From: Micrococcales bacterium
GTDB lineage: Bacteria; Actinomycetota; Actinomycetes; S36-B12; UBA10799
Assembly (NCBI GenBank): GCA_023252115.1
Contig: JAHEXM010000016.1
Coordinates: 962-13,309, forward strand
Direction of reading: 5' to 3'
DNA length: 12,348 nucleotides
Below are positions 690 through 8,457 of this stretch, piece after piece (positions within the stretch are counted from its first letter, which is position 1; each line of letters opens with the position of its first letter). The position numbers and the translations under genes were made by a program. A model generated the notes under the pieces. It did no database searches, had not been told where the DNA came from, and worked only from the letters and a program-made list of their open reading frames with translations.

Positions 690-797
690 TTATTTGCACC
701 GCAGAATCTTGTAGCGAATGAAATCCACGAGGTTCCACAGCCACGAGGTCTTGCGGGCGATTTTATCCACGGGGGCATTTGGGTCTTTGATTGGCAT
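690..797 (-). CDS. 35-aa microprotein, amphipathic and basic
   Basis: The ORF reads ATG 797-795 to TAA 692-690. Its ATG shares one base with the stop of the outer-membrane barrel gene (TGATG), the classical stop-start coupling arrangement, and no independent Shine-Dalgarno site is seen. The peptide starts MPIKDPNAPVDK and ends in an aromatic/basic stretch, SWLWNLVDFIRYKILRCK, that could form an amphipathic helix lying on a membrane. The tight packing between two other coupled genes supports it being expressed. I recognise no family. It could act at the membrane together with the lysis-type neighbours, but that is inference. Confidence 0.5.
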   Translation of the reverse strand: MPIKDPNAPVDKIARKTSWLWNLVDFIRYKILRCK

Positions 798-1309
798 CAG
801 AATGGCACCGTCAGGCCGATGGTGAGCGCGGGAGTGAAGTTGGCCAGCCGGCATTCGATTGCCGCAAACGCTTTGATCTTGGTCATGCGCGGCAAGATGG
901 TGCTGACGACTGGCAAGCTGTCTCGTGCCGCCAAGACCGGGGCGGGCGTGTCAAACAGCGTGGCGGTCATGCCTACCCCCGTGTAGTGCTCATCCCACGC
1001 CGGGACGTAGCTGTAGGCCAAGCCAGCGGCCAGTTCCCACCGGGCCGATGCCTGCCATGTGTGCATCTTGCCAAACAGGGACAAGCTGGCAGCGTGGTCG
1101 AGGTTCTTTTCAAGGCGGACGGTGTACGTTCCGCCGATGTCCACCTTATCGCTAATGGCGGACATGATGCCCTTGAACAGGTTGGCGGACACTTCGGGAC
1201 TGCTGACGGGCGCAGCGGCATTGGTGGCTACTTCCGCCGCACAGAGCGTCAAAGACGCGGTGGCCAGCCACATGGCGGCAATGGCGAGGCTTCGAGCGAG
1301 GCTTCTCAT
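797..1309 (-). CDS. Exported outer-membrane beta-barrel-like protein, 170 aa (Lom-like role possible)
   Basis: Start ATG 1309-1307 overlaps the holin-like stop as ATGA and has a good AAGGAG site about 11 bases upstream. The N-terminus is a clear Sec signal peptide (residues 1-25, basic start, hydrophobic core, Ala-rich end, likely cut after CAA). The mature part of about 145 residues consists of alternating polar/hydrophobic strands separated by turns, for example TYTVRLEK (61-68), TWQASARWELAAGLAYSYV (84-102), GVGMTATLF (111-119) and KIKAFAAIECRL (144-155). The last residues are ALTIGLTVPF, ending in Phe, the terminal aromatic expected of a BAM beta-signal. Lambda encodes the outer-membrane protein Lom next to its tail-fibre genes; this gene is in an equivalent place. 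Surface modification or superinfection exclusion is inferred. A different secreted beta protein is the alternative. Confidence 0.65.
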   Translation of the reverse strand: MRSLARSLAIAAMWLATASLTLCAAEVATNAAAPVSSPEVSANLFKGIMSAISDKVDIGGTYTVRLEKNLDHAASLSLFGKMHTWQASARWELAAGLAYSYVPAWDEHYTGVGMTATLFDTPAPVLAARDSLPVVSTILPRMTKIKAFAAIECRLANFTPALTIGLTVPF

Positions 1310-1527
1310 GGTTGTTTGGACTCCTTTTCGGGTTGAGCCGGTGGAGCCGGCGGTTTCTCTACCGGCATATCGAAGTACCGGCGCAACAATGATTGAGCAA
1401 AAAGCGCAAAGCCGACGACCAAGCCTTCGGACACTTGCTGCCAAGTGACCAGCGAGTAGAACGCCAGCCCGGAGTACGTCAAGACCACAATCAGGCAGAT
1501 CAAACCTTCCACTCGTAATTTTCTCAT
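1306..1527 (-). CDS. Holin-like two-helix membrane protein, 73 aa
   Basis: Start ATG 1527-1525 overlaps the stop of the spanin-like gene as ATGA, with a purine-rich AAGG about 4 bases upstream. After a basic N-terminus (MRKLR) there are two hydrophobic segments, residues about 8-27 (GLICLIVVLTYSGLAFYSLV) and 34-48 (EGLVVGFALFAQSLL), then RRYFDMP and a proline/charge-rich cytoplasmic-type tail (EKPPAPPAQPEKES). Size, two membrane segments, the charged C-terminal tail and the position beside a spanin candidate fit a class II holin or a holin-associated protein. No sequence family is recognised and no endolysin is visible in the window, so the assignment rests on architecture and position. Confidence 0.6.
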   Translation of the reverse strand: MRKLRVEGLICLIVVLTYSGLAFYSLVTWQQVSEGLVVGFALFAQSLLRRYFDMPVEKPPAPPAQPEKESKQP

Positions 1528-1958
1528 ACGGCCTTCCCCCGGCGGCTGGTGAAGGCGTGCCCGACCAGATAGACGGCCACGCTCCCCACAATGGAGCCGA
1601 TGGCCAGAATCCACAGCGGGCGGTTGGCTTCGGCGTTATCGGAAGAAATGTCGATGCGCTTGACCATGACCACCGCAATCCGGTGCATATCCAGCTTGAG
1701 CGATCCGCACAGGTCTTTGATGGCAATGGCAACGACTTGGGCATTGGTCGATTCCCGCGCCGCCGATTCCAGCGCCGGGAGCGTGTTGGAGTAGAGCCGG
1801 GTTTCGGCAACGCGAAGCTCTTGCAGGGTCGGGTTGACCTCGCTCGCCAGCGTGACCTGTGCCTGCTGCGCTACCGCCCCGACTTGCTTCACGGAACGGC
1901 TCGCAGTCGCGCACGAAAGAGCGCAAAGTAATCCCGCAAGTAGGTAGTGCTTGGTCAT
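1524..1958 (-). CDS. Candidate unimolecular spanin (u-spanin) lipoprotein, 144 aa
   Basis: Start ATG 1958-1956 overlaps the fibre stop as ATGA, with a GAGGA site about 9 bases upstream inside the fibre gene. Residues 1-16 look like a lipoprotein signal (MTKHYLLAGLLCALSC) with a non-ideal lipobox A-L-S-C16. A helical, mostly charged periplasmic-type region follows (about 20-112). A single membrane helix (about 114-136, PLWILAIGSIVGSVAVYLVGHAF) precedes a basic tail, TSRRGKAV. An N-terminal outer-membrane lipid anchor plus a C-terminal inner-membrane helix in one chain is the defining layout of u-spanins such as T1 gp11 (131 aa), which join the two membranes at the end of lysis. The holin-like gene directly follows. 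A bitopic lipoprotein with another role is possible because the lipobox is imperfect. Confidence 0.6.
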   Translation of the reverse strand: MTKHYLLAGLLCALSCATASRSVKQVGAVAQQAQVTLASEVNPTLQELRVAETRLYSNTLPALESAARESTNAQVVAIAIKDLCGSLKLDMHRIAVVMVKRIDISSDNAEANRPLWILAIGSIVGSVAVYLVGHAFTSRRGKAV

Positions 1959-4195
1959 GGCGCAGCATCCTCAAATTGAAACGCCTTGACCCAGCACGTC
2001 GAGGCTCCGATGGTGCCGATGTTCCGGCCGACAATGCCGACCGCTTGCGGAACGAAATTGATCGTGCGAGTCACTATGGGAGCAATGAAATCCGGCGGCG
2101 TCCGCGAAGCCCCGGGCTCGTAATAACATGTAAACGTATTGATGCCGTCCCAGCGGATACGCAACCAAAAATCAGTCGGCGCGGTGGCTTGGCTCGTCAA
2201 CACCTTCGTATCCACGCTGGCCGCGTTCCCGGTAAAGGTTGTGTTCGTTGAGGTGGTGATCGTCGGCGTCGCGTTGCCGGTGAACCCAATGTCGTACCGG
2301 AGTTGGAACATGGCACTATTGCTGGCCGAACTCGCCGAGGCAATCAGTCCGATACTGACCCCGGCCGCCGCGCCGGGAGTGTTGACGGTAAACATTCGAT
2401 GAATGGGTATCGAGGCTGTCCAAACGTGACCGGTCGAACTGGCCGGTATGTCATTGGGAGCGAGCAACGCCCGTGCGACATTATTATTTTCCGCGACGTT
2501 ACCAATCACCAAAAAAGTATTGCTGGTGCCCCACGTCCACGTCCCGAAGTTGGCGGGCCGCCACGTGCGCGGGATTTTGGTTGTGAAATAGTCGGTCAAC
2601 CCGGCGGTGTCGTTGGTCGGATGCGTCGCTCGTAACACAGGCAGACTTACCGGCAACGCGCCCCACACGTCATTGGAAACCATCACCGCGCCGGTCAGGG
2701 TGTCGATGAGGTTCGAGGAGACGAAGGAAAAGCCGCCGCTGCCCGCCAGTTGCGCCACGGCGGCGGGAGTCAAAGCGTTTGTGGTGAGCGAGCCGGGGTT
2801 CACGTCCGCCGAGAGCGTGCCGTTGATGTTTGTCAAATTGATGGTGGTCGTATTCGCCACGCCGTTCGAGATGGGGCCGGGGCTGCCGCCGCCAACGCCA
2901 CCAAAGCCCAATGCGGCCACGGCGTTACTGAGCAAAGCTGAATTTTCAGGAACGGAAAACAAATTCGTGCTGCCACCACGGAGCGCACCCGTTGAGGCGT
3001 TGACAATCACGGTCTGCGCGGTATCCGTGCAGGAGAAGAACTGCGCCCAGCCGCACGGCCATTTCAATCTGCCGGGGCCGATATTCGCCAGATTCACCGA
3101 GTACGGCAGCGGCGTCGAGTTGGTGGCGTTGGCAGCGTCGATTGCGGCCTGCCCTTGGATTGCAGCTTCAGGAACGGTGGTGCCATTGTAGAACGTCCAC
3201 CCTTCTGGGCCGTCGTTAGTTGGATCATAGGCAAGATTCCAAGGTGAACCATCCACGATACAAACATAAACTATTTCATAATTTGGTGTCCCCCACGCAT
3301 CGACATGAGGGCCTTCAAACAGGATTGACCACGTTGAGCCATTGGTTTCGGCATCCGTCCTTGGCATCGTCGAAGAGATTGCCCCGCTGGTCTGGGCTGA
3401 TAGGCGGTGTTGATTTGTCCCGCTGTCAGTCAGGCCGAGGTCGCCATAAGGGGAGAGCAAGTAAACGCCGTAGGTATAAGCGGAATCCGTAATTACATTT
3501 GTTGTGTGATAAGACGCTACGCCGGGAAATGCACCACCTGTAGGGCTGTTAGTATTTTTTACCGACCCGCCAATGGTCACACTGTTGTCGATGACAGCCA
3601 GCCCATTACTGAAAACATTTCGCGCCAAGAAGGTATTATTGCTAACCGAATAAACATCGCCGCCGGAGCCGCTGCCCCCGGTAACTGTCAGCGTTCCAAG
3701 GTTGCCAATCGTCGTGCCCGGCGTGAAGCTGAACCCGGTCCCCGCCAAGCTCGCGCCGACGTTGACCTTGCCGGTTGTGAGCACCGAAATCGCGCCCGCC
3801 AAAACATTATTGGTCGCCGTCCATGTCGCTATGTCGAGCAGGTTGTTGGTCAAGCCGGTGATGCTCGTCAGATAGCCATACGCCTCAATGACGGCCTGCA
3901 CGTTCGACACCGCTATATCGTAGGTCACCTGCTGACCGTTGATGGTGAGCGTTGCCAAGCCGGTCGCCGCGAAGGTGTTGGTCGCAGCACCGGAGCCGCC
4001 AGAGGCCGGGAGGGCTTTAAGCTGCCAACGCGGTATGCCAACTGTACCGGCATTTGTCCAGTCTCCACCAGAAGGTACGCCCAAGATAGATGCCGTGATC
4101 CCAACATGCTCATTGGAAACGATGAGATAGTTTGGTGACTGCGCCGGCGCAGAGAACGCCAACAGAATAAAAAGAAGTGTGATCCTATTCCCCAC
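1955..4195 (-). CDS. Large fibre-like or adhesin-like protein with signal peptide, 746 aa
   Basis: I start at GTG 4195-4193 because an AAGGA site (4200-4204) sits 4 bases upstream and the protein then opens with a compact signal peptide, MGNRITLLFILLAFSAPAQS, likely cut near APA. A TTG at 4213 in the same frame is less likely. The chain is Gly/Thr/Ser/Asn-rich and looks like a repetitive beta structure, for example NTFLARNVFSNGLAVIDNSVTIGGSV near residues 190-220, a pattern typical of phage fibre shafts ('NTF...NSVTIGG'). The last 150 residues (QLRYDIGFTG..., DFWLRIRWDGINTFTCYYEPG, ending WVKAFQFEDAAP) resemble a LamG/concanavalin-like beta-sandwich and may bind glycans. It follows the inverted small-gene cassette and is coupled to the spanin-like gene by ATGA. 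Receptor binding is inferred. The signal peptide is unusual for a virion protein. Confidence 0.7.
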   Translation of the reverse strand: MGNRITLLFILLAFSAPAQSPNYLIVSNEHVGITASILGVPSGGDWTNAGTVGIPRWQLKALPASGGSGAATNTFAATGLATLTINGQQVTYDIAVSNVQAVIEAYGYLTSITGLTNNLLDIATWTATNNVLAGAISVLTTGKVNVGASLAGTGFSFTPGTTIGNLGTLTVTGGSGSGGDVYSVSNNTFLARNVFSNGLAVIDNSVTIGGSVKNTNSPTGGAFPGVASYHTTNVITDSAYTYGVYLLSPYGDLGLTDSGTNQHRLSAQTSGAISSTMPRTDAETNGSTWSILFEGPHVDAWGTPNYEIVYVCIVDGSPWNLAYDPTNDGPEGWTFYNGTTVPEAAIQGQAAIDAANATNSTPLPYSVNLANIGPGRLKWPCGWAQFFSCTDTAQTVIVNASTGALRGGSTNLFSVPENSALLSNAVAALGFGGVGGGSPGPISNGVANTTTINLTNINGTLSADVNPGSLTTNALTPAAVAQLAGSGGFSFVSSNLIDTLTGAVMVSNDVWGALPVSLPVLRATHPTNDTAGLTDYFTTKIPRTWRPANFGTWTWGTSNTFLVIGNVAENNNVARALLAPNDIPASSTGHVWTASIPIHRMFTVNTPGAAAGVSIGLIASASSASNSAMFQLRYDIGFTGNATPTITTSTNTTFTGNAASVDTKVLTSQATAPTDFWLRIRWDGINTFTCYYEPGASRTPPDFIAPIVTRTINFVPQAVGIVGRNIGTIGASTCWVKAFQFEDAAP

Positions 4196-4274
4196 GTTTT
4201 CCTTGTGCGGCAATAAACCAGATTCCCAGTTGTTTTACAAGGTTAATTTTACTTGCCACTTTGTCCTTGGTCAT
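4185..4274 (-). CDS. Possible 29-aa leader peptide ahead of the 746-aa gene
   Basis: Minus-strand ATG 4274-4272 opens a 29-codon frame, MTKDKVASKINLVKQLGIWF..., that ends at TAG 4187-4185, 11 bases inside the start of the 746-aa gene in another frame. A GGA lies about 8 bases upstream. It fills the otherwise gene-free, AT-rich gap (roughly 40% GC at 4201-4300) on this strand. Overlap with the next start could couple translation. Against it, such a short frame can arise by chance and the same bases carry the divergent promoter. Low confidence. Confidence 0.25.
   Translation of the reverse strand: MTKDKVASKINLVKQLGIWFIAAQGKRGE
4200..4204 (-). promoter_or_regulatory. Shine-Dalgarno site choosing GTG 4195
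   Basis: AAGGA on the minus strand, 4 bases before GTG 4195, favours this start over TTG 4213 for the 746-aa gene. The same AAGGAAAAC-RTG module, in opposite orientation, forms the start site of the first small plus-strand ORF at 4294-4304. Confidence 0.65.
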
Positions 4275-4282
4275 GCTATATT
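4253..4282 (+). promoter_or_regulatory. Sigma70-like promoter of the inverted small-gene cassette
   Basis: TTGCCA (4253-4258, 5 of 6 consensus positions) and TATATT (4277-4282, 5 of 6) are 18 bp apart, in an AT-rich gap flanked by much more GC-rich genes. Transcription would begin near 4289, giving a very short leader before ATG 4302. It points against the late operon, as expected for an independently expressed moron-type gene. Confidence 0.6.
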
Positions 4283-4286
4283 CCAG

Positions 4287-4376
4287 TTGTCGAAGGAAAA
4301 CATGAAGCGCACTGACGAATCACAAACGATAACCGCCCGCCGATGGGTAAACGGAAGTGCGTGTTTCCTTCGACAA
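4287..4376 (+). promoter_or_regulatory. Inverted repeat that can hide the first ribosome binding site
   Basis: Bases 4287-4299 and 4364-4376 are perfectly complementary over 13 bp (TTGTCGAAGGAAA against TTTCCTTCGACAA). In RNA from the cassette promoter the stem would hide the Shine-Dalgarno site of the 43-aa ORF. After a one-base bulge the pairing can continue through the AUG (4301-4304 with 4360-4363, one G-U pair). An alternative inner stem pairs 4308-4313 with 4356-4361 (CGCACT/AGTGCG). Confidence 0.6.
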
Positions 4377-4433
4377 GAACTCCACTCGGTGCCTGTCGGC
4401 GGGCATTCCAATGAAGGAAACGTTCGACTATGA
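4302..4433 (+). CDS. Small plus-strand ORF, 43 aa, first gene or leader of the inverted cassette
   Basis: ATG 4302-4304 has an ideal GAAGGA site 4-5 bases upstream and lies about 20 bases after the -10 element at 4277-4282. The product (MKRTDESQTITARRW..., ending GHSNEGNVRL) is hydrophilic with one Cys and no family I recognise. Its stop overlaps the start of the 46-aa ORF as ATGA (4430-4433), so translation of the two is probably coupled. Both its Shine-Dalgarno site and its start codon lie in one arm of a 13-bp inverted repeat whose partner arm is inside this ORF (4364-4376). It may be a real small protein, or a leader whose translation governs the second ORF, as mok does for hok. The frame is open well upstream of the ATG, but the site and promoter argue for this start. 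Confidence 0.55.
   Translation: MKRTDESQTITARRWVNGSACFLRQELHSVPVGGHSNEGNVRL
4363..4421 (+). promoter_or_regulatory. Alternative pairing that can hide the second ribosome binding site
   Basis: Bases 4363-4371 (GTTTCCTTC) are also perfectly complementary to 4413-4421 (GAAGGAAAC), the Shine-Dalgarno region of the 46-aa ORF. Because 4364-4371 are needed in both stems, pairing with the first and with the second site is mutually exclusive. Ribosomes crossing the first ORF would melt this stem and free the second site. Confidence 0.5.
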
Positions 4434-4570
4434 AATACACCCTCGTGATCGTTGTTCTGATTGCAGTCGGCCTCGGCTTGGAGTGCTTGAAGTTGAGGGC
4501 TGACATTCGAGACCATGAAGAGGCCGGATACCGGTTTGATCGGGTTGTTAGTGCGCTGGAAAGACGCTGA
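4430..4570 (+). CDS. 46-aa single-pass membrane peptide, second gene of the inverted cassette
   Basis: ATG 4430-4432 overlaps the preceding stop (ATGA) and has its own GAAGGAAA site at 4413-4420. The peptide begins MKYT, has one hydrophobic helix (LVIVVLIAVGLGLECL, about residues 5-20), then a highly charged C-terminal half (RADIRDHEEAGYRFDRVV..., ending ERR). Its TGA (4568-4570) is 1 base from the stop of the 1193-aa gene on the other strand (4572-4574), so it fills the gap exactly. Size, layout (one N-terminal helix, Cys at its end, charged tail) and leader-ORF coupling are like type I toxins of the Hok class, but I cannot show homology. Alternatives are an inner-membrane superinfection-exclusion peptide or a lysis modulator. 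Confidence 0.6.
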   Translation: MKYTLVIVVLIAVGLGLECLKLRADIRDHEEAGYRFDRVVSALERR

Positions 4571-4571
4571 T

Positions 4572-7500
4572 TCATGGTCGGTGTGGGAAGCTAAAATCCG
4601 AAATGATGATGACCGTTGGACTGAGCTTCCAGCCCTTCAGCGTTTCGTTCGTGGTGACGGCAATCAGGCCGTTGGTGTTGAGGAAGTCCGTGACGACGTG
4701 AATGTTCGTCTGGCCGGTCGAGTTCCAAGTGTTCGACGTGCCCCACAGCCCGACGTTGTGCGCTTCGTCGTAGAGCACCGGGGCTTCCGCTGCCCATTGC
4801 GGAGCGGCAGTCCACAGCAGATTCGTGACAGCCACGTTGAAGTTCGTCACACCGTTGTCTTGCCAACTGCCAAGATCGGAGTCCGCTTGCTCGAACTCGT
4901 CGGCCACGGTGTACACCGGCCACGTTGTCACCGTTGAAATGTAAGTGCTTTTCCCGTTGCCCCACGATGGCGCGGCATAGGCTGGGCAGGCGTTGGTGTT
5001 GGCAACCCATGTCTGCACAACCTGCGTCGCTGTGATGCTGATACTGACTTCAACCGGTTCGGAGTTGGTGAGCAGCCATCGTCCGGTCTCGCTGGGTGCC
5101 GGCGGCTTCACCCCTTGCGGGTACACTTGTATACCGGCGGCGTACAGCTTGGAAATGTCGGTGAAGATTCCCGCCGACGATTGTTGCTGCACGAGCAGGT
5201 CTTGCGACAGCGCGCTGGCCGCCGCCGGGTTGGTGCCGTAGTAGGTGCCGACAGCATCGGCTACGTCACTGGCGGTGTTTGTCCACGTCAATTTCGTGCA
5301 GTACAAAACATCGTTGGTGATACAACTGGCGTCAATGTTGATTGGTGAAAGTCCTCTCCAAAAGCGCAAAGTCAGCATCGGGTCATCCACGAATCCCGGA
5401 GAACCATCGAAAACCGGCCATTCCGTTCCGTCGGGGTGATACCAGATAAAATCATGCGGCGTTCCAAACTCACACCCCAACGAATTTGCGATTGCGGTTT
5501 TCGCCGCCGCCACGTCCGCGCAGGTGTTGATTGTATTCGTTGCCCAGTCGTTACAATAGCCATCTACCAGAAGCATCCAGCAGGTTCCATTGGAGCACAC
5601 AACCGGTATCGGCTCGTATCCAGTGCAGGGGTTGCCACCGTCACACGGATTGCCGGTATCGAACCAAATCGGAGCCTGACAATGCAAACACGTCACCACA
5701 TAACTTCCCGTCGCAATCCCGGTGACAAATCCGGTGCCATCGGTCGTGTACACATCCGTCCTGAAATACCCGCAACTCAGGTTGTTCGCCTTCGATGCCA
5801 GCGCGATACCGGACGGCGGGTTGCTGGTGTAGGCGTTCGTGAAACTATTCAACGAGTTCGCTGCCGCCAGAGAGTTTGACGCCACGCACGCGCCGGGCAG
5901 GAAGTACCCGAACAAGCTCACGTCCACCAAGTCGGCCACGTCGTCACTACCATACCGGTTCGCCATCGTGTTTGTGCTGGACTGCCAGAAGTTCGTGACG
6001 ACCTGATACGGCTTCGTCAGCGAGTTCCAGCCTTTCTTCACTCCGTCCCATCCGTAGTCAGCTTCGTGCTTGCCAGTGGCGATGTCATAGTTGGTGAACA
6101 CCGACGAACTGTTGGTGAGGTTGGCGGGATTCGTCAGTGTCACCGATAGCAGCGTCGTGTTTGCATTGGCGAGTGGCGGGTCAACCACGATGGCTGCGTT
6201 GGTCTGTCCAGAGAAGTCGTGCCGCAACACTTCCATTTTCATCGTCGCAGTGTTGGTGAAGTAACAGGTCGTCTCGACGTTGGTCAGCGTGTTTGTGATC
6301 CCGCCGGTAATGACGTTCGTGGTGAAGACGTTGGTGGAACAGTTGGCCGCAAAGACGAAGTTGCTCCGGTAGGCGTTCGTCGCCACGGTCTGCCAGTTGG
6401 TCAACGTCAGGACTTGCTTCGTCCATTCCATCGAATTGCTGTAAAGCTCGCTGTGATGATGGAGCGTGTTTGTCCAGTAAAACTCCATTGAGAACCGCAG
6501 CACGGGATCGCCGGCAATCGCCAACTGATTCGTGGCGATATGATTCAGGTTGGTCACGATGTTCGGAGTGCTTGGAGCGTACAGCGTCCCGTTGACAAGG
6601 AATCCGTTCGTCGCATACGCGCCCCACCACAGCCACTTGTCCTTGAACTCCCAAGTGTTCGTGACGACGTGCCCCAGCCCTTGTCCCCACGACGCGGGGT
6701 TGGTGCTGGGCGGCGTCGCGTAGACTTTGTATGGCGAAGATCGAAACCAACTGCTGAGTACGACTCGGTTACGGACGACGAATGTTACATTGGTTGTCTC
6801 ATTTGTGACACCGATAAACCAGCCCTGTACGGCAGCGGAGTTGGTCAAATCCCGGTACTCGCAGTCATACGGCAGGTTCAACAGGTACAACGCCGTTTCT
6901 TCCACGGTTGGTACTTCGGGCGTCAACGGGTACGTCCAAGCATCGGTCTTCGGATTATTAGTAAGCACAATCGGCGGTGGCCATTTCGGAGGCTGGCGAG
7001 CGGTGAAGTTCGTGTACCAGCCCACGAGGTTCTTGCCCAAGTCCACGCGCTCGCAACTTCCATTTGCGTTGTATCCGATACAGTTCGTCACGTTCAACCT
7101 CCCGGCGAAGTCCCGGAACAGATGGTTGCTCTGAATCGTTGAGCACCACGTCCTGAACGTCCCGTTGCTGTCGGCCAGTTCTTTGACCGCGTAATTTCCG
7201 AACGCCGCCAGCAACCGGGCCTTGGCCGCAATCAACAGCGTTTGATTCAGGACATTGGCGTTGACATCGGCAAACGGGACGGTTGCATTCAGCACCGCCG
7301 CCCGTTCGCCCGCCGCGATCACGTCGTCATATACCCACGTCTGTTCAAGTCGCAGGCATTGCGTGGCTTCATTGGCATTGGTCGGGCTGAGATAGACCGA
7401 GCTTATCAGTTGCGGGAAGCTCGTCAGATAACAGTTGACCGACACGGAGTTCGACGGCCACGCCGAACACAACGCGGCCAGCGGAGGATTGCTCCAACTG

Positions 7501-8153
7501 GCAATCGTGCTACAGAGCATGAGCCGCGTCACAGTGCTGGTGGTAAACGTTGCCACGCTGCACGGCGGGGTATTCGAGTAGAACGTGTTGTTCGTTCCCA
7601 AGCACCAGTTCGTCCCGGTGTCACCGATGCAGAAGTTGCTGCTGATGGTCACGTCAAGGTGGGACGCCACATCGGAGAAGGCGTAGTTTGACGCGGTAAC
7701 AGACGCACAGTAAATGCGGTTGGAGAAGACGTGCGTGGAAATGTAATTCGTGCCGTGATCGGTGTTCGTGACTGAGCGCGTCGTGACACAGAGGTTGGAC
7801 AGCGTAATTCGCAAACTGGTGTTCGACGGCAGTGCCGGCAAATCCACTTTCACCCAAGTATCCGAGCGCGTGACGTAGGCATTCCAGACGCCGGACGTTG
7901 GACAAAACAGATTCGTGCTGGCGATGTTCCCGGAGTTCGTCAGGGACGGCGCGGCATTGGTGTACCGCGATGTGTTCGTGACCAAGCTCGCCGGCAGTCC
8001 GCCGTACTGCGCGGGCGGGTTGGTGTACGGCCACGCGCCGTTGTACCAGTTGTCGAACGCGACCAACGGCACGGACAACAGCGGCGCACCGATGACCAGC
8101 AGCGCCAGCCCTCTAAGGCACGTTAAGAATCGGCGGTAGCCCGGCGACCTCAT
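4572..8153 (-). CDS. Giant Thr-Asn-rich fibre-like or adhesin-like exported protein, 1193 aa
   Basis: The frame is open up to 8258, but I start at ATG 8153-8151: a Shine-Dalgarno site (AAGAGGT, 8157-8163) is correctly spaced and the protein then opens with a signal-peptide-like segment (MRSPGYRRFLTCLRGLALLVIGAPLLSVPLVA, cut probable before FDNWYNGAW). The chain is packed with Thr-Asn dipeptides (VTN, LTN, STN, FTN) and many N-x-S/T triplets, typical of a beta-structured surface protein. About residues 820-895 form a Cys cluster: CLHC, two NPC motifs, and further single Cys, nine in all. The C-terminus (ADEFEQADSDLGSWQD... to DFSFPHRP) has no known domain that I recognise. It follows the tail-tip genes, so a tail fibre or receptor-binding protein is the best positional guess; a secreted conversion protein is an alternative. 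It overlaps the 114-aa gene by 41 bases. Confidence 0.65.
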   Translation of the reverse strand: MRSPGYRRFLTCLRGLALLVIGAPLLSVPLVAFDNWYNGAWPYTNPPAQYGGLPASLVTNTSRYTNAAPSLTNSGNIASTNLFCPTSGVWNAYVTRSDTWVKVDLPALPSNTSLRITLSNLCVTTRSVTNTDHGTNYISTHVFSNRIYCASVTASNYAFSDVASHLDVTISSNFCIGDTGTNWCLGTNNTFYSNTPPCSVATFTTSTVTRLMLCSTIASWSNPPLAALCSAWPSNSVSVNCYLTSFPQLISSVYLSPTNANEATQCLRLEQTWVYDDVIAAGERAAVLNATVPFADVNANVLNQTLLIAAKARLLAAFGNYAVKELADSNGTFRTWCSTIQSNHLFRDFAGRLNVTNCIGYNANGSCERVDLGKNLVGWYTNFTARQPPKWPPPIVLTNNPKTDAWTYPLTPEVPTVEETALYLLNLPYDCEYRDLTNSAAVQGWFIGVTNETTNVTFVVRNRVVLSSWFRSSPYKVYATPPSTNPASWGQGLGHVVTNTWEFKDKWLWWGAYATNGFLVNGTLYAPSTPNIVTNLNHIATNQLAIAGDPVLRFSMEFYWTNTLHHHSELYSNSMEWTKQVLTLTNWQTVATNAYRSNFVFAANCSTNVFTTNVITGGITNTLTNVETTCYFTNTATMKMEVLRHDFSGQTNAAIVVDPPLANANTTLLSVTLTNPANLTNSSSVFTNYDIATGKHEADYGWDGVKKGWNSLTKPYQVVTNFWQSSTNTMANRYGSDDVADLVDVSLFGYFLPGACVASNSLAAANSLNSFTNAYTSNPPSGIALASKANNLSCGYFRTDVYTTDGTGFVTGIATGSYVVTCLHCQAPIWFDTGNPCDGGNPCTGYEPIPVVCSNGTCWMLLVDGYCNDWATNTINTCADVAAAKTAIANSLGCEFGTPHDFIWYHPDGTEWPVFDGSPGFVDDPMLTLRFWRGLSPINIDASCITNDVLYCTKLTWTNTASDVADAVGTYYGTNPAAASALSQDLLVQQQSSAGIFTDISKLYAAGIQVYPQGVKPPAPSETGRWLLTNSEPVEVSISITATQVVQTWVANTNACPAYAAPSWGNGKSTYISTVTTWPVYTVADEFEQADSDLGSWQDNGVTNFNVAVTNLLWTAAPQWAAEAPVLYDEAHNVGLWGTSNTWNSTGQTNIHVVTDFLNTNGLIAVTTNETLKGWKLSPTVIIISDFSFPHRP

Positions 8154-8457
8154 AATACCTCTTGTTGGCCGGGAACGGTCGGGGAGCCGTCCCGTCCGGT
8201 TGACCGTCATCGAAGACCGCTGTTTCTTCCACGTCATCCACCACGAGCCATTTACCAAAGTCGCCAGTTTTCACTTCCCGTTTCCCGCTCTTGAAATCCA
8301 CGATGCCGCGCCACCCACCCCTCTTAATCAGGAACGGCAACAATGACGGCGATGGCCAAGTTTGTTGAACTTGTTGCAGCGTGTTTAAGCCGCGTGTTTC
8401 AGACTCACGCAGAACACGATTTATTCTTTGACGTTCATGGGGATTGAGGATTGCCAT
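8113..8457 (-). CDS. Hypothetical tail-region protein, 114 aa
   Basis: ATG 8457-8455 (MAILNPHERQRINRVLRE) lies 4 bases after the stop of the 349-aa gene and is the natural reinitiation start. An upstream ATG at 8520 in the same frame would overlap that gene by 59 bases and gives a less coherent N-terminus. No strong Shine-Dalgarno site is seen. The protein starts with a charged helix, has a Trp/Gly-rich middle (FLIKRGGWRGIVDF) and an acidic stretch (VVDDVEETAVFDDG), and ends YYEVAGLPPILNVP. No signal peptide or membrane segment. Being between the tail-tip candidate and the fibre gene suggests a small tail or connector protein, but I do not recognise a family. Confidence 0.6.
   Translation of the reverse strand: MAILNPHERQRINRVLRESETRGLNTLQQVQQTWPSPSLLPFLIKRGGWRGIVDFKSGKREVKTGDFGKWLVVDDVEETAVFDDGQPDGTAPRPFPANKRYYEVAGLPPILNVP
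8157..8163 (-). promoter_or_regulatory. Shine-Dalgarno site choosing ATG 8153
   Basis: AAGAGGT on the minus strand lies 3 bases before ATG 8153. It supports the signal-peptide start of the 1193-aa protein over the longer frame that begins at 8258 inside the preceding gene. Confidence 0.65.

Follow-up and report, generated by a model that had tools for sequence, protein, structure and literature searches.

We describe, on the plus strand of a phage contig, a divergent unit between two minus-strand genes that combines two coupled small open reading frames (ORFs) with a leader carrying more complementary sequence than shuffled DNA provides. Our preferred reading, which we put forward tentatively and with somewhat less than even confidence, is that this is a real phage unit composed of a leader ORF and a membrane peptide, in which the start of the message would be hidden by a hairpin and then opened by refolding.

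The window, meaning the whole stretch of DNA analysed, covers 12,348 of the 13,309 bases of its contig, which belongs to a 69%-complete genome. One limit of the contig falls inside the gene of a metallo-phosphoesterase (219 aa), and the other lies 23 bases ahead of the start of a 135-aa gene. The phosphoesterase at the contig end matched phrog_20266 in PHROGs (E 1.7e-8), whereas none of the other scanned proteins had a PHROGs match at E 1e-3 or better, and no scanned protein of the contig attained its family cut-off in Pfam or NCBIfam. The assignment to a phage is based mainly on this phosphoesterase match and, by inference, on the gene layout. A structure model of the 135-aa protein, used as a test of phage identity, was uninformative (pLDDT 35), and no integration end was seen when one was looked for on the 13.3-kb contig. 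Ten N residues occupy contig positions 952-961, just ahead of the window start; they resemble a scaffold gap, and the sequences on their two sides may not adjoin.

The genes flanking the unit had been called fibre genes in the first-pass annotation, which the searches did not bear out, as neither had a match above the cut-offs in Pfam or NCBIfam or any match in PHROGs. Both of these supposed fibre genes (1955-4195 and 4572-8258, minus strand) appeared by eye to encode a signal-peptide-like hydrophobic start, which is odd for tail fibres. The first of them probably starts at GTG 4195 behind AAGGAAAAC and not at TTG 4213. Further along the minus strand, the 144-aa protein encoded at 1524-1958 has, by eye, a lipoprotein-like N-terminus and a C-terminal membrane helix, a layout that we take to resemble that of a unimolecular spanin; PHROGs gave no match to it, and Pfam none above cut-off. 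The 73-aa protein encoded at 1306-1527 (minus) contains hydrophobic segments and is holin-like, with only a weak match to a holin family (phrog_33625, E 0.26). Adjoining these lysis-like genes, the gene at 797-1309 (minus) encodes a 170-aa protein with a signal-peptide-like start, has its own AAGGA and had no PHROG match.

The unit itself consists of ORF1 (4302-4433, plus strand, 43 aa), a probable leader ORF, and ORF2 (4430-4570, plus strand, 46 aa), which share an ATGA overlap. Each is preceded by an AAGGA ribosome-binding site, located at 4293-4297, 4 nt ahead of the ATG, for ORF1 and at 4414-4418, 11 nt ahead of the ATG, for ORF2. The ORF2 stop ends at 4570 and the opposing TGA occupies 4574-4572, leaving a gap of 1 bp. 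Both frames, their coupling, the two ribosome sites and the single base pair to the opposing stop had been noted in the first-pass annotation with correct coordinates throughout. We then compared these features with chance, counting ATG-initiated frames that reach 40 aa or more and carry AAGGA, AGGAG or GGAGG 4-12 nt ahead of the start. Only ORF1 and ORF2 qualified among the 28 plus-strand frames of the window. Four frames among the 31 on the opposite strand qualified: three are starts of genes that look credible (135, 161 and 170 aa), and the fourth is an ATG within the 349-aa gene. When 4196-4571 was shuffled 5000 times at the dinucleotide level, 57 shuffles yielded one or more ORFs with a ribosome site, none yielded two and none a coupled ATGA pair. 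The ORF pair with its ribosome sites thus exceeds chance. The coding bias of the two frames is weak: the codon score of ORF1 fell below 99.3% of sampled true-frame stretches, like that of a wrong frame, and the score of ORF2 was intermediate, below 96% of them. The anatomy and the chance controls therefore support the earlier proposal that a one-helix membrane peptide is encoded by a divergent unit of its own on the plus strand; codon usage does so less.

ORF2 encodes a predicted one-helix membrane peptide with a charged tail. Its best 17-residue hydropathy, starting from residue 4, was 2.59, compared with at most 2.43 in 67 other plus-strand ORFs, and its structure model shows one helix with a pLDDT of about 91 over residues 1-20, a weak test given that a single sequence was modelled. 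Both observations agree with the membrane peptide described at first pass. The profile searches proposed at that stage, where no known family had been recognised, likewise returned no ORF2 match above cut-off in Pfam, NCBIfam, PHROGs or PADLOC. Weak entries only were obtained, to phrog_8652 (function unknown, E 0.056) and to an NCBIfam lipoprotein family far under its cut-off (E 0.093), and a Pfam scan to E 10 gave no match.

A promoter-like site, TTGCCA-18-TATATT with a TG-extended -10, lies at 4253-4282 on the plus strand; it was recognised by consensus match only (10/12) and would place the transcript start at about 4288-4289. Requiring at least 4/6 in the -10 and then either 8/12 overall or TG, it is the sole plus-strand promoter-like site in 4200-4900. 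The sigma70-like promoter of the first-pass annotation is thus present, although such sites number near chance (2 found in 2 kb, with 1.1 +/- 0.9 expected). A weaker divergent promoter-like site, ATGACC-17-TAAAAT (9/12, near chance level), occupies 4246-4274 on the minus strand and faces the 752-aa gene; since it overlaps the plus-strand site, polymerase could use only one of the two at once. The promoter end had also been described as AT-rich, and this holds for the promoter end itself (GC 0.364 at 4214-4290, against 0.563 for the whole window), while the ORFs hardly differ from the window (0.53). A GC content as low as that of 4205-4294 was found in 64 of the 12258 90-bp stretches of the window. 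Terminator-like sites in 3500-5500 were as numerous as expected (2 found, 2.0 expected), with a 5-pair one inside ORF2 and an 8-pair one at 5156-5179, ~590 bases beyond ORF2.

The leader contains two strong complementary regions that cross each other. The sequence TTGTCGAAGGAAA at 4287-4299 has a perfect inverted copy at 4364-4376, giving a 13-bp helix, S1, whose left arm holds the ORF1 ribosome site and begins 1-2 nt from where the transcript is predicted to start, so that RNA from 4289 would keep 11 of the 13 pairs. Inside S1, a predicted bulge (4300-4306, in which 4301 may pair with 4363) contains the ORF1 start codon, and an inner helix, S1b (4307-4313 with 4356-4362), is predicted to extend the hairpin by seven pairs past this bulge. 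The second region, S2, is predicted to pair 4335-4349 with 4390-4404 over 15 bp including G-U pairs, crosses S1, and ends 9 nt ahead of the ORF2 ribosome site. S1 is present on both strands, and S2 has 15 pairs as plus-strand RNA against 10 on the minus strand. Two further pairings were predicted: S3, in which 4363-4371 would instead pair with the ORF2 ribosome site, contributes negligibly to the predicted ensemble, and S4, TTCGAC at 4423-4428, can pair with the transcript 5' end (4289-4294) at intermediate lengths.

These leader elements are in excess over chance. A 13-bp perfect repeat arose in none of 3000 shuffles of 4214-4571, and among 4000 shuffles of 4283-4432 a helix of S2 strength appeared in 1, one of S1 strength in 7, and both together in 0. 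The fold energy of 4289-4408 had a z-score of -3.96 on the plus strand and -1.29 on the minus strand, against a window background with mean -0.17 and sd 1.09 (408 stretches); the corresponding values for 4280-4440 were -2.51 and -0.75. The z-score alone is no proof, because the limits 4289-4408 were picked after the repeats had been seen, the two plus-strand grid stretches across the leader reached only -2.8 and -2.9, and the 120-nt stretch 6069-6188 on the plus strand, antisense to the 1228-aa gene, has an equally stable predicted fold (z -4.0). No leader, riboswitch or ribozyme family was found in Rfam, where the four matches were all under their gathering scores (best E 2.8). A CUGANGA-like stretch had suggested a hammerhead ribozyme, but Rfam gave no match. 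A DNA inversion, or terminal repeats of an insertion, was also set aside: exact copies of the 13-base arm in this incomplete assembly are confined to its two sites here, and the promoter lies outside.

To follow the leader as it would emerge, folding was predicted at increasing transcript ends for four assumed starts, 4287-4290. At ends 4380 and 4400, S1 had a probability of 1.0 for all four starts and the ORF1 ribosome site was 11% open, so that folding of the message is predicted to hide this site through S1 and S1b. At end 4575, S2 had a probability of 1.0 for all four starts, the 5' end of the transcript was paired with other partners, and the ORF1 ribosome site was 71-80% open. Between these lengths, once the RNA extends to about 4428, S4 becomes available to the 5' end and S2 gains. 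With starts 4289 and 4290, S2 led throughout past about 4428, and from 4290 it led by 4405 already, whereas with starts 4287 and 4288 S1 still had probabilities of 0.79 and 0.48 at end 4500; the change point is unreliable in detail because it varies with the assumed start. When either S1 or S2 was forced, the folds of 4289-4432 differed by 2.5 kcal/mol. Mutual exclusion of S1 and S2 is itself presumed, since the folding programs treat neither pseudoknots nor kinetics.

From this anatomy we infer transcription, a folding switch, translational coupling and a membrane effect, in the following order. The message would start at about 4289 and encode the 43-aa leader ORF and, overlapping it in ATGA, the 46-aa peptide of the inner membrane. 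In the nascent RNA, the first ~90 bases would fold as S1 and S1b, burying the ORF1 ribosome site and trapping the start codon in the bulge. As the RNA grows longer, at the earliest past about 4428 for start 4289 and fully only near the end, S4 and S2 would win and the hairpin would open. ORF1 could then be translated, and ribosomes finishing it may restart on ORF2, so that the membrane peptide would be translated late or only under some condition. Its site of action is probably the cell membrane, where a low level of it would inhibit growth or serve in exclusion. A broader and quite improbable extension is that the unit represents a class of self-timed phage genes for membrane toxins or exclusion factors, which would use no antitoxin RNA, being held by the leader hairpin, released by refolding of the complete RNA and silenced during lytic growth by convergent read-through from the late operon.

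Several other explanations were weighed against this reading. The unit might simply be a moron-like gene that encodes a small membrane peptide, acting for example in superinfection exclusion or envelope change, with incidental repeats and with ORF2 using its own ribosome site. The reversed orientation, the AT-rich promoter end, and the AAGGA and helix of ORF2 all fit such a gene, as does the ORF2 ribosome site, which was about half open at all tested lengths containing it, so that ORF2 might not need the switch. We consider it unlikely but worth keeping in mind, because incidental repeats agree poorly with the joint occurrence of S1 and S2 in none of the 4000 shuffles and with the position of S1 on the ORF1 ribosome site, next to the predicted start. 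We regard as quite unlikely that there is no plus-strand gene at all and that the gap is either a spacer in the late message of the minus strand, where a hairpin would slow or process that message, or encodes a minus-strand protein of 99 aa (4276-4575) that is coupled to the 1228-aa gene. S1 can form on either strand, and the start of the 99-aa frame does overlap the stop of the 1228-aa gene in ATGA; however, it has no ribosome site and no Pfam match, its codon score is noise-like and lower than that of any sampled true-frame stretch, and the minus-strand fold is the less unusual one over both intervals scored above.

Two further alternatives assign the regulation to RNA in other ways. In a leader of riboswitch or thermosensor type, ORF1 would be untranslated and the RNA 4289-4408 would sense a signal for ORF2. 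The wrong-frame-like codon use of ORF1, the two competing folds and the closeness of S2 to the ORF2 ribosome site are in line with this, but ORF1 is preceded by a good ribosome site and is coupled through ATGA, Rfam yielded no family, and among the 165 further genomes of the order that were scanned, covariance models of the leader matched none convincingly. We consider such a leader quite improbable. Very improbable is a complete type I toxin-antitoxin locus, in which the leader would be bound by an RNA of antisense or divergent origin that stops ORF1 and ORF2 from being translated. Type I toxins are small and usually have a membrane helix; a two-ORF message, a leader ORF, a nascent hairpin and a one-helix peptide are as described for such loci, and read-through from the 1228-aa gene would be antisense to the unit. 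Against it, no minus-strand promoter-like site was found between 4252 and 4900 under the promoter rules given above, pairing between RNA from the divergent site and the leader was ordinary (82 of 500 shuffles were as good or better), and no sequence match of the unit to a toxin family was found in Pfam, NCBIfam, PHROGs or PADLOC, nor any match in Rfam. The label "type I toxin-like" had been offered at first pass; it gains from the folded leader, which that annotation had missed, and loses in that no antisense promoter was seen and the complementarity of the divergent RNA was unremarkable. The reading that we prefer remains the leader ORF and membrane peptide with a refolding message.

Relatives were searched for with ORF2 and six neighbour proteins (574, 1228, 349, 752 and 161 aa, and the 219-aa phosphoesterase), leaving ORF1 and the smaller minus-strand genes out of the contig and genome collections. 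Viral contigs held no relative of these six proteins, of ORF2 (with five upstream in-frame residues) or of the inverted-repeat pattern, genome contigs held none of the 574-aa and 349-aa proteins, and phage and plasmid records held no convincing relative of the unit or its neighbour proteins; an ORF2 match in two records of one phage (E 9) was taken as chance. In whole genomes, only the source genome itself was recovered with the 574-aa protein (1 of 396), the phosphoesterase (1 of 394) and the 349-aa protein (1 of 166). The 1228-aa protein recovered 2 of 166, its own plus a 66-residue segment interrupted by two stops (E 7e-4), which was taken as chance. ORF2 gave matches in 14 of 40 whole genomes at E up to 10 (best foreign E 0.089) and in 7 of 396 at E up to 0.05 (best foreign E 0.013), its own included in both; the sole foreign match inspected, in a short frame of 89 aa, sits amid bacterial-looking genes and was rejected. 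A covariance model of the leader matched 4 of 166 genomes including its own at E up to 0.01. The three foreign matches (84-96 nt) were rejected, having no inner helix and at most the outer helix with mismatches, and their E-values of 0.003-0.006 per genome are near chance over 166 genomes. A rebuilt model matched 2 of 166, again including its own. These results indicate rarity and not absence, because not every protein was compared with every collection and the pattern-based scans reach close relatives only.

Phage morons carry a promoter and terminator of their own, differ in base composition, are expressed in the lysogen and occur in one phage while a relative lacks them between the same genes. 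Moron, the first-pass label, is in this strict sense a candidate assignment, and the searches with the proteins and collections described above gave no relative either with or without the segment. Like the morons of lambdoid phages, the unit is a small gene in opposite orientation with its own promoter-like site and an AT-rich promoter end; unlike them, its terminator-like sites are not above chance.

Three type I toxin messages offer the closest parallels in their leaders. In hok/mok of plasmid R1, the toxin message needs a leader ORF, and a small membrane toxin is made by way of this upstream ORF while message folding governs access (PMC4147584); the toxicity of ORF2 is only hypothetical here. 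The two differ in that mok overlaps hok, whereas ORF1 touches ORF2 only in ATGA, and in that ORF2 had no Pfam match in the scan to E 10 and the promoter search gave no antisense site over the unit. In aapA3/IsoA3 of Helicobacter pylori, nascent hairpins mask the Shine-Dalgarno sequence co-transcriptionally (PMC6733600), as is predicted here. The hidden site in that system is that of the toxin, whereas here it would be that of the leader ORF, and no antitoxin was seen here. The enterobacterial timP/TimR system also encodes a small membrane peptide, and its leader is proposed to adopt mutually exclusive message folds, one of them with crossing helices (PMC11228461). There the hidden site is TimP's own and a seven-pair pseudoknot is backed by covariation (PMC11228461), whereas the present folds come from a single sequence. 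On paper the unit would thus resemble type I toxin messages, and we do not file it as one, given that no antisense promoter was seen, that the divergent RNA pairs in an ordinary way and that the toxin is only a candidate. If the leader does not work as predicted, the unit adds another small unassigned phage membrane peptide. If it does, the unit would be a compact case of an accessory gene whose expression is timed by RNA, in a phage to which the searches gave no close relative; to keep a membrane peptide silent, this phage would share the co-transcriptional trick that type I toxins of chromosomes and plasmids use, and would seemingly do so with no antitoxin RNA.
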